The notes under the pieces are model-generated. The model was not told the DNA's origin, made no database searches, and saw only the letters and a list, made by a program, of their open reading frames with translations. From contig CAMPCZ010000004.1 of NCBI GenBank assembly GCA_946648015.1, forward strand, positions 1 through 39,317: a stretch of 39,317 bases of DNA, written 5' to 3'. Below are positions 31,760 to 37,899 of the stretch, piece by piece; position 1 is the stretch's first letter, and the number at the start of each line of letters is the position of its first letter. Made by a program: the position numbers and the translations under genes. This DNA comes from an uncultured Clostridia bacterium. GTDB lineage: Bacteria > Bacillota > Clostridia > Christensenellales > CAG-1252.

Positions 31760-33295
31760 ATGAAAAAGTTTGCATATAGCATCACGGCCATCATTTTGAT
31801 ATGCGCCATGTGTTTTGCCTTGGCGGCATGCCACAAAAAGACGGACGACAAGGCGCCCGAGGACGAGATAGACAAACCCATTGCCGCCGAGGGCATATCC
31901 CTCAATTGGCAGGAAGCGCTGATGGCCAAAGGGACCGCGCTGACGCTTGCGCACACGCTTAGCCCCGACGGTGCCACGGGCACCGCCGCCTACACCAGTT
32001 CGGATACGGCCGTGGCGCAAGTCAACGACAGCGGATTGGTATCGGCCATAGGGTCGGGCGTGGCGACCATCACCGTCAAAATCGACGACGACCACTATGC
32101 CGAGTGCCGCATTATCGTGGGCGACATCGTGGTTAAAGCGCCCGACCGCCCCGAAGGTAGCGACACAAACGGCGGGACAGACGTTACGGAGCCGGGTGGA
32201 GAAAACGGCGCCACTACGGGCGAAGGCAACACTACCGGTGACGGCAGTACCACAGGTGACGGCAGTACCACAGGAGGCAACGATACCATAGGTGATGGAA
32301 CCACTACCGGGGACGGTGAGCCTATCGGCACCGGCGACGCCGACACAGGGGACGGCAACACTACCGGTGACGGCAACACTACCGGTGACGGCAATACTAC
32401 CGGTGACGGCAATACGTCAGGAAATGACTCTGCGATAGTAGATGGCGGCGCCGTGGGTGAAGGCACCGGCAGCGACAACAACGGCAACGGTGCGAACAAT
32501 GCAACCGACACCGACGGTATGGGTGGCGACAGGCAAGCGCCCGGTGGCAGCGCACAGCCCACCGACGGCGAAGATCAGACCGCTACGCCCGCCGACAATT
32601 TGCGCCGAACCGTATTGGGCAACGAGGGCACCACGCTCTTTGACAACGTAGCGGCGGCCATAGCGGCGGCGACAGACGGCAACGTCATCGTGATAGACGC
32701 CGGCATCTACGCCGAAGACGTCGTTATCAACAAAAATCTGTCGTTGACGGGCGTCAACAATCCCAAAGTGCAGGCAATCACGGTAGAGGCAGGCAAAGCG
32801 GCCGTTCTATCCAACCTCAGCGTGGTATTGGCGGATTATCCCGACGCGGGGCAAGCGGCGGTGCACGTCAAATCGAACGCGTCGCTGGAGATGCTCAACT
32901 GCGTGGTGACAACCACCGCCACGGGCGAATTGACGGGCGGATACGGCGTATTGGTCGAAAAGCAAAGCAAAAAAGTAAAGATCGCGAGCAACAGCATAGG
33001 CAACTTCCGCTACGGCGTATATATCTGCCCCACCGACCAATCGGTGGCCGTGCACGACAACAAGTTTTCCAATATGGCGGTAGGCGTCGGCTTGGACGTG
33101 CGGCAGGAAAATGCGGAGACCAACTACCCCACGTTGGGTCGCATTGCCGACAACGAATACAACGAAGTGACCAACCACACCCAATTTTTGCACTACGGCG
33201 AAAACTACGACGGCGACTTCGACTTTGCCGACAATGAGCAAGAGAATGCGTCGGAGGGCAACAGCAATACGGGCGGCAGCGGCTTGCTCGAATAG
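31760..33295 (+). CDS. Surface lipoprotein: Ig-like (Big_2) domain, TGDGN repeat linker, right-handed beta-helix
   Basis: Lipobox ALAAC; Big_2-like LSPDGATGTAAYTSSDTAVAQVNDSGLVSAIGSGVATITVK; TTGDGN repeats; pectate-lyase-like AIAAATDGNVIVIDAGIYAEDVVINKNLSLTG. Confidence 0.88.
   Translation: MKKFAYSITAIILICAMCFALAACHKKTDDKAPEDEIDKPIAAEGISLNWQEALMAKGTALTLAHTLSPDGATGTAAYTSSDTAVAQVNDSGLVSAIGSGVATITVKIDDDHYAECRIIVGDIVVKAPDRPEGSDTNGGTDVTEPGGENGATTGEGNTTGDGSTTGDGSTTGGNDTIGDGTTTGDGEPIGTGDADTGDGNTTGDGNTTGDGNTTGDGNTSGNDSAIVDGGAVGEGTGSDNNGNGANNATDTDGMGGDRQAPGGSAQPTDGEDQTATPADNLRRTVLGNEGTTLFDNVAAAIAAATDGNVIVIDAGIYAEDVVINKNLSLTGVNNPKVQAITVEAGKAAVLSNLSVVLADYPDAGQAAVHVKSNASLEMLNCVVTTTATGELTGGYGVLVEKQSKKVKIASNSIGNFRYGVYICPTDQSVAVHDNKFSNMAVGVGLDVRQENAETNYPTLGRIADNEYNEVTNHTQFLHYGENYDGDFDFADNEQENASEGNSNTGGSGLLE
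32208..32424 (+). repeat. Degenerate 18-bp tandem repeat coding (G-D-G-N/S-T-T)n
   Basis: GGTGACGGCAACACTACC units, several near-identical copies in a row. Confidence 0.9.
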
Positions 33296-33325: not shown

Positions 33326-33393
33326 TAACAAAAATATGCCAAAACCCGTGCATTACTGCCAAAAAACGCCGCGGTTTGATAGTCATATCGCGG

Positions 33394-33399
33394 TATAAT
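33394..33399 (+). promoter_or_regulatory. -10 box immediately upstream of spoIIE start codon
   Basis: TATAAT, 6 nt before ATG at 33406; no good -35. Confidence 0.55.
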
Positions 33400-33405
33400 A
33401 CACAG

Positions 33406-35667
33406 ATGAAACCGCACAAAAACACACGTCTAATACTGCAATATATAGCGTTTTTTATATTGTTTATCCTATCCGCTATGGCCTCAAACGGCGTCATTCG
33501 CCCCTTTGGCATAGGGCTATTCGTAGGTCTCGTCTATTGCCGCAAAAACATATGGCTTTTGGCGCCTATGCTATTGGCCGCCGCGCTCATAGGTGAGTTC
33601 AGTTGGCAATCCATACTGCTTGCGGGCACCGCCATCGCGATCATCACCGTGGCGTATTACGTACACTATTTGCTCAAAAAACGAATGCAAGCGTGGCACT
33701 TGTTGATCTACTCGTTCATAAGTCAACTGCCCGTGCTGTTCATCTACGGTCTTTCGCCCGAGCGCCTCGTATCCGGCGCCGTGTGCTTGGTATTGGGCAC
33801 CACCTACGCCCTCGCCTCGTGCGTGGTATGTCATATGGTTTTAGTCAAAGGCATACGTTACCGCGCCACCGCCAAAGAAGAACTGTCGGTGGGAATGCTG
33901 ATAGCGGCGCTCACCATGGGCTTGATGCGCCTTTTGGTTTGGGACGTGCGCTTCGGCTATTTGGCGTTGGGTTTCGGCTACCTGCTGGCACCGCGTATGC
34001 TGGGCGAAAAAGGGGTTTTTGCGGTGGTATCGTCGGGACTGGGCGCATGGGCGGCCACAGGCGACTTGGCTTTTTTGGCATTGGCGGCGGTGTGGGGCAT
34101 AGCGGCCTACACGTTGCGCCTCAAACACCCTATATTTGCCCTGTTGGTGCTGGTCTCCACCGATTTGGCGTGCGGATTGGCACTGCATTTATACGACAAC
34201 TATTTCTACGTAAACACACTGCTATTTGCCTTGGGTGGGCTTGCATTGGCCTTAGTTCCCCCCAAAGTGCGCCATACATGGGAAAAGTGCTTAGAAGCGG
34301 ACAACGACTTGGGCGTGCGCTATTTGGTCAACCGCAACCGATTGGACTTGTACACCAAACTCAACGGAGTCAGCAGCGTATTGACGGATATGCGTTTGGT
34401 ATTGGAAGGCGGCATAGCAAGCCTGCCGCCCCTTGCCAACAACAAGAACAAATTGGCAAAGGAATTGTCGCGCACGCTGTGCGTAGAATGTGAAAACAGA
34501 CCGCATTGCGAACGCGTTTTGTCGGCGTCTACCGCGGTTGCCATGTACGACCTGATCAGCCGCGGCATCGAATTGGGGCGCCTCAACCAACTGGAAATGC
34601 CCGCCTTCTTCGACGACAACTGCCCCTATGCGCGTCGCGTCGTAGAGCGCTGCGCCGCTCTTTTGGACGATTACGTCGCACGCAAAGAGGTATGCGACCG
34701 CGTAGACGACAACAAACGCATTATGTGCGAGCAATTGTCGGGGCTTGGCGGATTGATGACGGATCTGGCTACCGAAGTCAAGCAAGTGGTATCCTACGAC
34801 ACCACCACCGAAAAGCGCATCATAGAGGACTTGTCCAACCACAACGTCATAGCCAAGGAGTGCATCGTCTACCGCGACAAAGGGCTGGCTACCGCCATCG
34901 TGGTGGTGCGCGCCGCCGACGTAGACAAGCCCGACCTCGACATTACGCTTGCCAAGCACTTGGGCAAGATGGTACTCAAAAGCGTAACCAATCACACGGC
35001 AGGCTGGGTGAGCCGATGCTACGTAACGGCACCGCCTTTGGGGTTGGCCGCCGGACAGGCCGCCAGCACCAAAAAAGGCAGCGAACACACGGGCGACACG
35101 TTCTCGGTGCTGCCACTCTCCACCGACAAAACATTGCTGGCCGTGTGCGACGGTATGGGCAGCGGGATCGAAGCCTCGGGTGGCGCCAACGCGGCCATGG
35201 CGCTGGTAGAGAGTTTTTATACGGCGGGCATAGACGACGAATCTATTTTGGGGCTTATCAACAAGCTGTTGGTAGTGCGCAACGAAGACTGCTTTCAGGC
35301 TTTGGATATGTGCGTGGTGGATTTAAGGCACAAATACGCCGATTTTATCAAACTCGGCGCGCCCGAAAGCGTAATTCGCCGAGCCGACCGCATAGAAGTG
35401 GTAGAAGGCGGCGCGCTGCCTTTGGGCATTCTCGAAAACGTTACGCCAAAGGTGAGCCGCGTGCCCCTCGTGGCAGGAGATATGATCGTGATGTGTTCGG
35501 ACGGCATATCCGAGACCATTGGCGTGGACGGCGTGGTGCGCATGACCGAGCAAAACCCCACCACCAACCCCAAAACGCTGGCGCGGCTGGTATTGGAAGA
35601 CGCGCTATTCGTCAGCGAAGACGACGACAAGACGGTGCTTTGCGCGCGCATATTCGACAACGTATAG
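33406..35667 (+). CDS. spoIIE: Stage II sporulation protein E (PP2C-type Ser phosphatase, N-terminal multi-TM)
   Basis: Multi-TM N-terminus; VCDGMGSGIEASGGANAAMALVESFYTAG and MIVMCSDGISETIG phosphatase motifs. Confidence 0.92.
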   Translation: MKPHKNTRLILQYIAFFILFILSAMASNGVIRPFGIGLFVGLVYCRKNIWLLAPMLLAAALIGEFSWQSILLAGTAIAIITVAYYVHYLLKKRMQAWHLLIYSFISQLPVLFIYGLSPERLVSGAVCLVLGTTYALASCVVCHMVLVKGIRYRATAKEELSVGMLIAALTMGLMRLLVWDVRFGYLALGFGYLLAPRMLGEKGVFAVVSSGLGAWAATGDLAFLALAAVWGIAAYTLRLKHPIFALLVLVSTDLACGLALHLYDNYFYVNTLLFALGGLALALVPPKVRHTWEKCLEADNDLGVRYLVNRNRLDLYTKLNGVSSVLTDMRLVLEGGIASLPPLANNKNKLAKELSRTLCVECENRPHCERVLSASTAVAMYDLISRGIELGRLNQLEMPAFFDDNCPYARRVVERCAALLDDYVARKEVCDRVDDNKRIMCEQLSGLGGLMTDLATEVKQVVSYDTTTEKRIIEDLSNHNVIAKECIVYRDKGLATAIVVVRAADVDKPDLDITLAKHLGKMVLKSVTNHTAGWVSRCYVTAPPLGLAAGQAASTKKGSEHTGDTFSVLPLSTDKTLLAVCDGMGSGIEASGGANAAMALVESFYTAGIDDESILGLINKLLVVRNEDCFQALDMCVVDLRHKYADFIKLGAPESVIRRADRIEVVEGGALPLGILENVTPKVSRVPLVAGDMIVMCSDGISETIGVDGVVRMTEQNPTTNPKTLARLVLEDALFVSEDDDKTVLCARIFDNV

Positions 35668-35671
35668 ATAG

Positions 35672-35769
35672 CAAAAAGGCTTGCGGAAAAATCAACACAA
35701 GCCTTTTCACTAATTATATGATAAGGGGGAAATTATAATTCTCTTTTGGTTGTAACCGTTGCCGATTAC
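35672..35769 (-). ncRNA. Candidate small RNA (~98 nt) with own promoter and terminator
   Basis: Minus-strand TTGACT-17-TAAGAT promoter (35776-35804), 5' hairpin GUAAUCG-GCAA-CGGUUAC, C-rich loop flanked by AAUUAU/AUAAUU, rho-independent terminator; no ORF. Confidence 0.5.
35673..35708. terminator. Bidirectional terminator downstream of spoIIE and of the candidate sRNA
   Basis: AAAAAGGCTTG...CAAGCCTTTT. Confidence 0.88.
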
Positions 35770-35775
35770 AATGAT

Positions 35776-35804
35776 ATCTTAGCACTATTTCCGTGCAAAG
35801 TCAA
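35776..35804 (-). promoter_or_regulatory. Orphan promoter between pepE 3' end and spoIIE terminator
   Basis: Minus strand TTGACT-17 bp-TAAGAT. Confidence 0.65.
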
Positions 35805-35828: not shown

Positions 35829-36533
35829 TTATTGCACAATAATCTCTTTTTTGCAAAATAGAGGCTGCGTTGCGTCCAATTCGTAGGCTTTGCCGCCCGT
35901 CGAAACCACTCGCTTTATTTGCCCGTCGCCGAAGTGCAGAGCCACGTTATCCTCCAATGCATAAGCGTGCATCCCCTCTCGCCGCACCACTTGGTCAAAC
36001 TCGGGTCGCAGGTTGTAGTGGGGCGTCATAGCGCCATGCAACAACCCCCACCCGTCCATCAGACAATAGTCGTTGCCCAGGCCTTCTATCATTTGGGTAT
36101 CGGTATACATACGGTCAAACCAGCAAATAGCGCCGGCCGACAATCCCGCTATCGGCACGCCGCGCCTATAGGCCGACACGATGCGCCGCCCCAGCCCCGT
36201 GCGCCGCCACTCGGCCAGCATAAAGCCCGTATCTCCGCCGCCGATGTAGATCAGGTCGCTTTGCTCTATTTTGGCTTGCATTTCGTCCTCGCTCATCTCG
36301 CCGCCGCGCACGGTCAGCACGAGGTCGGCCTTTATGTCAAATACCGAGGTATACGTCTTGCGAAAGGTATTGAAATATGGCTTGCTGTCGTGGCTCGCGG
36401 TAGGTACAAACAATGCCGTTGGGCGCTTGCCCTCGGCATGGCGGAAGGCCAGCGTTGCACAGTAGGCGTCAATGCCCAGGGTCGATTTGGCTCTGAGGTC
36501 GCCGCCCCCTATACAAATCAAAGTTTTTTCCAT
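35829..36533 (-). CDS. Peptidase E / S51-family (class I GATase-like) peptidase
   Basis: LICIGGGDL, LIYIGGGDTGFML, IAGLSAGAICWFD nucleophile elbow; SD AGAGGTGAT. Confidence 0.88.
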   Translation of the reverse strand: MEKTLICIGGGDLRAKSTLGIDAYCATLAFRHAEGKRPTALFVPTASHDSKPYFNTFRKTYTSVFDIKADLVLTVRGGEMSEDEMQAKIEQSDLIYIGGGDTGFMLAEWRRTGLGRRIVSAYRRGVPIAGLSAGAICWFDRMYTDTQMIEGLGNDYCLMDGWGLLHGAMTPHYNLRPEFDQVVRREGMHAYALEDNVALHFGDGQIKRVVSTGGKAYELDATQPLFCKKEIIVQ

Positions 36534-36612: not shown

Positions 36613-37899
36613 ATGAAACGCCTATTTTTAGCCATGCTTTGCCTTGTCATATTGTTGTCCACCCTGCTTTGCGGCTGTCGGCACGCGGCGCCTTCCGCGC
36701 CACGACAACAAGAGTTGGAGCCCATCGCCTATTCGGCGCAAATCGTTCTCGACGCCGCCACCAAGCGAATGGAGGGGACACTCCAATTCACATTCGTCTC
36801 GCCCGAAAACGGTCTTAAGGAGTTATGCGTTTGGGCGCCTCACGGCTTAGACGGGGCGCAATGCAACGAGCAAAGCCTATCCCTCGAGCGGCAAGAGAAC
36901 TACACGCTGCTTGCCCTACCCACTGTCGCCGAGGCGGGCAGCGAATGGGATATACGCCTACGCTTTTCTATGGATTGCGCCTATGGAGCGGGCTTCGTCG
37001 CCCGCGATTTTATTCCCCTTGTGTGCGCCTTTGACCAAGGATTTCTGCGCCCCCAAGCACCCGACTACGCGCCCTATTTTCGACCATGGGCGGGGCAGGT
37101 CGACATGACGATCGTCGCACCAAAGACCCAGGTGGTGCTGTGCTCCGGGCAACTGGTCGAGCGCACCTATCCCGACGGCATACAGAGCGTACGCTACGCC
37201 TTGGACGTGGCGCGCCCCAACCAAATGATAGCCGACCCCTACCTCGCACGGCGCGAAGCCACCGTGGGGCATACCCATTGGGAATACTACGCCACTTCGT
37301 TGCATGACCCCGTGTGGCAAACTCTGCTATCGCTCGCCGACGCCGCCACTACGCTGTGGGGTGAGCCTGCACACGACCACGTGGCCATCGTGCAAGGGTC
37401 ATATGCCGCCACACCCGCCTTGGTCGGAATGGCGGCCACCGATATGCGCACCATAGCCGAAGCGGTAGCGGCCATGTGGGCGGGAGCGCCCGCCGCCGAT
37501 GCTTGGATCACGCCCTCTATCGAGCGATTTGCGCTGTATCGCCTGTATGTGGATATAGACGAAAAGGCCGCCTATAAACTGCGTGACGAAGCGCGGCAAA
37601 CCCTTTTGGAATACCAACTGTTATTTGGCCAAACGGGGGACGCCGCACGTATGGACAAACCGCTCGCAAGCTATGACGAGAACGCCTATCGAGCGCTGCT
37701 CGAGAACAAAGGACTGCTGCTATGGAGCACGTTGCGCGAAATAGCGGGCGAAGCGATAGACCGCGCCATACTCGCCTTGCGCCGATCGCCGACGGCACCC
37801 GATACGGCTGCGGTGATGGCCGCGGTGAGCAAGACCACCCATCACGATTATAGCGACTATTTTGCCGCCTGGCTCGGGGGCAACGTGTTATTGGTATAA
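36613..37899 (+). CDS. M1-peptidase-like lipoprotein lacking HExxH (predicted catalytically inactive)
   Basis: Lipoprotein signal ...LLSTLLCGC; M1-like layout, IAEAVAAMWAG where VAHEIAHQWFG would be expected, followed by IERFALY (cf. NEGFATY). Confidence 0.65.
   Translation: MKRLFLAMLCLVILLSTLLCGCRHAAPSAPRQQELEPIAYSAQIVLDAATKRMEGTLQFTFVSPENGLKELCVWAPHGLDGAQCNEQSLSLERQENYTLLALPTVAEAGSEWDIRLRFSMDCAYGAGFVARDFIPLVCAFDQGFLRPQAPDYAPYFRPWAGQVDMTIVAPKTQVVLCSGQLVERTYPDGIQSVRYALDVARPNQMIADPYLARREATVGHTHWEYYATSLHDPVWQTLLSLADAATTLWGEPAHDHVAIVQGSYAATPALVGMAATDMRTIAEAVAAMWAGAPAADAWITPSIERFALYRLYVDIDEKAAYKLRDEARQTLLEYQLLFGQTGDAARMDKPLASYDENAYRALLENKGLLLWSTLREIAGEAIDRAILALRRSPTAPDTAAVMAAVSKTTHHDYSDYFAAWLGGNVLLV

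Follow-up and report, generated by a model that had tools for sequence, protein, structure and literature searches.

The locus raises the question of why promoter-like hexamers should stand between two convergent genes, and whether they direct the synthesis of a small RNA. The window, i.e. the whole 39,317-nt stretch analysed (uncultured Clostridia bacterium, CAMPCZ010000004.1), had been read in an earlier note as carrying an independent sRNA of about 100 nt between spoIIE and pepE. Our analysis leads to the same reading, to which we assign a probability of about 0.75: the locus probably encodes a small regulatory RNA of ~100 nt acting in trans. Sequence inspection placed four elements on the minus strand between 35804 and 35670 (promoter, 5' hairpin, C-rich core and terminator), and found in place the TTGACT-17-TAAGAT promoter (35804-35776), the hairpin with a GCAA loop, the CCCCC run with its terminator and the convergent gene pair that the note had described. 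The features are as follows.

35799-35804, minus strand: -35 hexamer TTGACT (TTGACA in many relatives, G001 and G019 included)
35776-35781, minus strand: -10 hexamer TAAGAT, 17 nt from the -35 hexamer
near 35769, minus strand: predicted +1
35750-35771, minus strand: 5' hairpin TTGTAATCG-GCAA-CGGTTACAA, with 7 bp within the predicted RNA
35707-35742, minus strand: conserved single-stranded core AGAATTATAATTTCCCCCTTATCATATAATTAGTGAA
35732-35717, minus strand: exact family 16-mer TTTCCCCCTTATCATA, inside the core
35729-35725, minus strand: CCCCC run
35670-35711, minus strand: intrinsic terminator stem-loop, with 16 covarying pairs in the family
33376-35667, plus strand: spoIIE (Pfam SpoIIE and SpoIIE_N), the convergent neighbour; its start codon is uncertain
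35829-36533, minus strand: peptidase S51 (pepE-like) gene, upstream of the sRNA and in the same orientation

The terminator is probably common to the sRNA and to spoIIE on the opposite strand. The predicted RNA of 105 nt folds with -31.2 kcal/mol (z = -5.5 versus shuffles), a low energy owed mostly to the terminator and the 5' hairpin. Nine promoter-like sites were counted in 9.3 kb versus 7.0 ± 2.5 in shuffles; the window promoter taken alone is within chance expectation, and conservation therefore had to decide. Among the surrounding genes, the ORF at 31760-33295 (plus strand) encodes a Big_2 domain and many consecutive GDGNTTGDG-like repeats, and a lipoprotein gene without Pfam match (36613-37899) adjoins pepE. 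By eye, the latter resembles a peptidase-M1-like gene family with members close to the sRNA in 19 other loci, and may mark an ancestral neighbourhood.

The unit is retained in close relatives. In G001, a genome of the window's genus, the spoIIE-pepE order is kept (SpoIIE 71% identical) and the intergenic minus strand preserves a TTGACA-17-TAAAAT promoter, the terminator and an identical stretch of about 50 nt (AGAATTATAATTTCCCCCTTATCATATAATTAGTGAAAAGGCTTGTG), with the window's hairpin sequence replaced by GGCAA-GAGA-TTGCC. The same core follows trxB in G019, from another genus of the family, behind a TTGACA-17-TAATAT promoter and with a terminator that differs by compensatory pairs, and the unit lies at yet another location in G005, of the window's genus, with a TTGACA-17-TATAAT promoter. 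A 16-mer search did not detect the exact core in the congeners G002 (54% complete), G003 and G004, nor a copy in sister genus g2; despite lacking the exact core, G003 gave a borderline match. The exact 23-mer of the window's core had no match in the collection of genome contigs because that form of the core is specific to the window's family.

A covariance model built from three sequences matched 76 of 396 genomes of the order, and nearly all inspected matches contained AGCTCATAATTTTCCCCCTTATCATATAATT and a terminator. GCTCAT had been left out of the model, so that its recurrence is independent evidence. The model-free search for the exact 16-mer recovered 134 of the 396 genomes, from 44 of 142 genera, with no match to the same sequence read backwards. 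A scan of genome contigs added up to at least 120 stretches, mostly from Clostridia MAGs, with carriers including Candidatus Borkfalkia (Christensenellales) and the named strain Pumilibacter intestinalis CLA-AA-M10 (L105). Outside the order, a phylum-wide search with model R2 gave nothing convincing: 12 genomes were matched and only the window was clearly real, the other matches being rejected for want of a full core with a promoter, several of them terminators or gene starts. Neighbouring genes vary (spoIIE-pepE, trxB, spmAB, aminotransferase, glmM and others), and conservation of the putative sRNA is independent of them.

The sRNA is usually present in one copy per genome. Two or three copies were seen in some genomes (L077 with L139, L089, L115 with L118; G047, G391, G313), lying about 0.85 kb apart in L077 and L089. 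In about 20 loci (L049, L075, L078, L114, L149 and others) it adjoins spmA/spmB-like spore maturation genes. An unverified "Bacteriophage sp." record (L377; MT835718.1, 10297-15325) carries it behind trxB, with flanking genes named from sequence as spoIIR-like, spore cortex hydrolase-like and polysaccharide deacetylase-like; this record looks like a bacterial contig and not a phage. The spmA/spmB-like, spoIIE (window) and spoIIR (L377) neighbours may hint at sporulation or may be due to chance.

What the core might do is suggested by its opposite sense, which in most loci reads GATAAGGGGGAAAATTATGAGC, that is, a Shine-Dalgarno (SD) sequence AAGGGGG, six bases, AUG and AGC. In most relatives the core is thus, letter for letter, the exact complement of what would be an ideal ribosome-binding site (AAGGGGG-AAAATT-AUG-AGC). 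The complement of AUG-AGC is lost in the window's family, where the opposite-strand ATG reads ATA. The core also varies between A and C at one position (CATAATT or CATCATT). Pairing preference was expressed as the difference, in kcal/mol, between start regions and coding sequence, with gene starts taken from a simple rule. In G293, over the 1.8 of 2.0 Mb covered, the real seed reached -2.88 kcal/mol, versus -1.23 ± 0.51 for shuffles that kept CCCCC (0 of 60 as good) and -1.28 ± 0.73 for full shuffles (0 of 40). The corresponding value for the window seed in the window's own genome was -2.27, versus -0.92 ± 0.65 (2 of 100 CCCCC-kept shuffles as good) and -1.06 ± 0.70 (6 of 100 full shuffles). 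These results lend clear support to start-region pairing in G293 and modest support in the window's genome. Together with the complementarity to a whole ribosome-binding site, this preference lends support to the trans-acting role that the earlier note had proposed for the C-rich segment.

Some individual matches to the core complement were also recorded. An exact 23-nt complement coincides with the start region of an rnfC-like gene in Ruminococcus bicirculans (L145, 1026-1048); the identity is probably a coincidence, and it exemplifies the core as the antisense of a natural ribosome-binding site. In G203, GGATAAGGGGGAACATTATGAG and forms almost identical to it add up to sixteen copies, many of which sit at contig ends (e.g. 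L222, ~1501-1522), a pattern reminiscent of a repeat or mobile element with a start region that would nearly match the sRNA. A site one mismatch from the core complement (G036:C144:15135-15156; L223) precedes an ORF of 14-15 codons and lies downstream of another gene.

No single universal target emerged when near-complementary sites were sought, a search that preceded any target hypothesis. The few additional sites lay, among other places, in two start regions, those of a GPH sugar transporter gene (G293) and of a GH31-like glycosidase gene, named from its sequence (G197), and directly upstream of an MFS_2 match (G167). Transporter genes of interest in G293 are located at C4:198553 and C3:164377. 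The top predicted targets in G293 included GPH transporters, GH30 enzymes, alpha-L-fucosidase, L-fucose isomerase, FGGY kinase and nucleotidyl transferases; among the families listed for two control sets of 70 G293 genes, MFS_2 occurred 0 and 1 times. The 17 GPH homologues of G293 ranked high, with an AUC of 0.75 (0 of 60 full and 1 of 60 CCCCC-kept shuffles), and seven of them were in the top 75 versus 1.2 and 1.8 for shuffled seeds, a ranking that is not an independent test because the sugar-transporter hypothesis arose from G293; the G167 and G197 sites provide partly independent support. We infer that, for at least one family of the order, sugar transporters may be among the targets, together with other carbohydrate genes. 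For the window's genus, sugar-transporter targets were not supported, the start regions of these transporters in G000 and G001 not matching, and no clear theme was apparent among the ~23% of the window genome's predicted-target list that was examined.

The same observations bear on a different role for the core, namely that it serves mainly as a docking site for an RNA-binding protein, as in a sponge RNA or a 6S-like regulator, with mRNA pairing being secondary. An invariant segment of 16-24 nt exceeds the usual length of a pairing seed, and a docking site would fit with the lack of a universal target; however, the core mirrors both SD and start codon at ideal spacing and prefers start regions, and we regard protein docking as unlikely.

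Promoters were scored in 106 distinct loci, with a threshold of at least 10 of 12 consensus positions. A predicted promoter was present on the RNA strand in 89 loci, versus 7 on the opposite strand and 6.5 expected from shuffles, and the best-scoring spacer was usually 17 nt. This distribution argues against a short translated leader on the other strand, with AAGGGGG and ATGAGC functioning as SD and start; the opposite strand does carry these elements, six bases apart, in most relatives, but the change of ATG to ATA in the window's family and the position of the codons after MS, which fall within the variable leader, make such a peptide very improbable. Very improbable, too, is the notion that the unit is merely the 3' portion of pepE, closed by a bidirectional terminator, with a chance promoter match: in the window it follows pepE in the same orientation, and one such match per window is expected by chance, but the promoter goes with the unit when its neighbours are unrelated, and the core persists where the flanks have all diverged. 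It is conservation that gives the putative promoter its significance.

The terminator stem exhibited compensatory changes at all 16 pairs and was 99.3% paired, versus 45-57% when slid, with an alignment that had been fitted to the tested structure and hence favours the high figure. A long leader was present in 84 loci, 81 of which fold better than shuffles (mean -9.6 versus -4.2 kcal/mol), and a short leader without hairpin in 21. The leader hairpin is conserved in position, not in sequence; hairpins at the place of the GNRA stem highlighted by the note were common without keeping its sequence, and the window hairpin, absent from short leaders, can be viewed as a common but dispensable 5' cap. 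The second stem of the note, AATTAT...ATAATT, was not borne out: it showed no covariation, three of its five pairs break in relatives, and the core it was meant to expose is single-stranded, predicted to be mostly unpaired (0.62-0.87). The loci thus display a fixed predicted architecture of a sigma-70-type promoter, a variable and usually hairpinned leader, an invariant C-rich core of ~24 nt and a freely evolving intrinsic terminator. A conserved site in the DNA itself, for instance a chromosome landmark or mobile-element end, would account for an invariant 16-mer usually present once per genome but not for fixed promoter spacing, terminator covariation and sequence-varied leader hairpins, which are RNA features, nor for two or three copies in some genomes, and is scarcely credible.

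The trans-acting sRNA therefore remains our preferred reading, with order-wide conservation in varying gene contexts and terminator covariation pointing to an independent transcript of about 100 nt. The family appears to be real and undescribed, and its transcription is deduced from sequence. In the proposed mechanism, the core would pair, in several mRNAs, with both the SD sequence and the start codon, blocking binding of the 30S subunit and lowering translation of the targets, and the 5' hairpin and terminator stem would shield the ends of the RNA. More tentatively, and with less confidence than doubt, the RNA could be an order-wide core sRNA of gut Clostridia, of an origin independent from RsaE and from SgrS/Spot 42, whose long invariant seed acts as a generic translation-start antisense tuning sugar uptake and catabolism, a form of post-transcriptional catabolite control. 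Expression and targets are directly testable, as the sRNA is carried by the named strain P. intestinalis CLA-AA-M10.

Rfam searches of the window and 12 relatives returned no match, and our literature search found no paper describing this sRNA. The best weak Rfam score on the window was for the SR6 antitoxin (RF02892; 25 bits versus a cut-off of 55, E = 0.027), which like the window unit has a C-run followed by a terminator hairpin; unlike in SR6, no toxin gene was seen opposite the window's sRNA. SgrS and Spot 42 are enterobacterial sRNAs acting on sugar transporters, and would be similar in action if the sugar-transporter targets are right, with no sequence relation expected; support for this target class comes from a single genome, and the window's genus provides none. 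The closest likeness is to RsaE/RoxS (RF01820; Staphylococcus, Bacillus), Firmicutes sRNAs that use C-rich regions to bind G-rich SD sequences and so keep translation from initiating (PMC4409812), and which are, like this family, short, C-rich and conserved beyond a genus. RoxS has several C-rich regions, whereas the present family has a single core, which extends over AUG and the following codon as well. RF01820 was not among the matches listed for the window, was not found in L105 and scored 21.7 bits at L036, below the gathering cut-off of 79; on present evidence, the sRNA may work like RsaE without being a member of that family. RsaE has been called the sole trans-acting sRNA besides 6S RNA common to S. 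aureus and B. subtilis (PMC4409812). Trans-acting sRNAs conserved over many genera are rare in Firmicutes, and the putative family described here, absent from Rfam and with an almost frozen core, is carried by roughly one in three sampled genomes of an order of largely uncultured gut bacteria.
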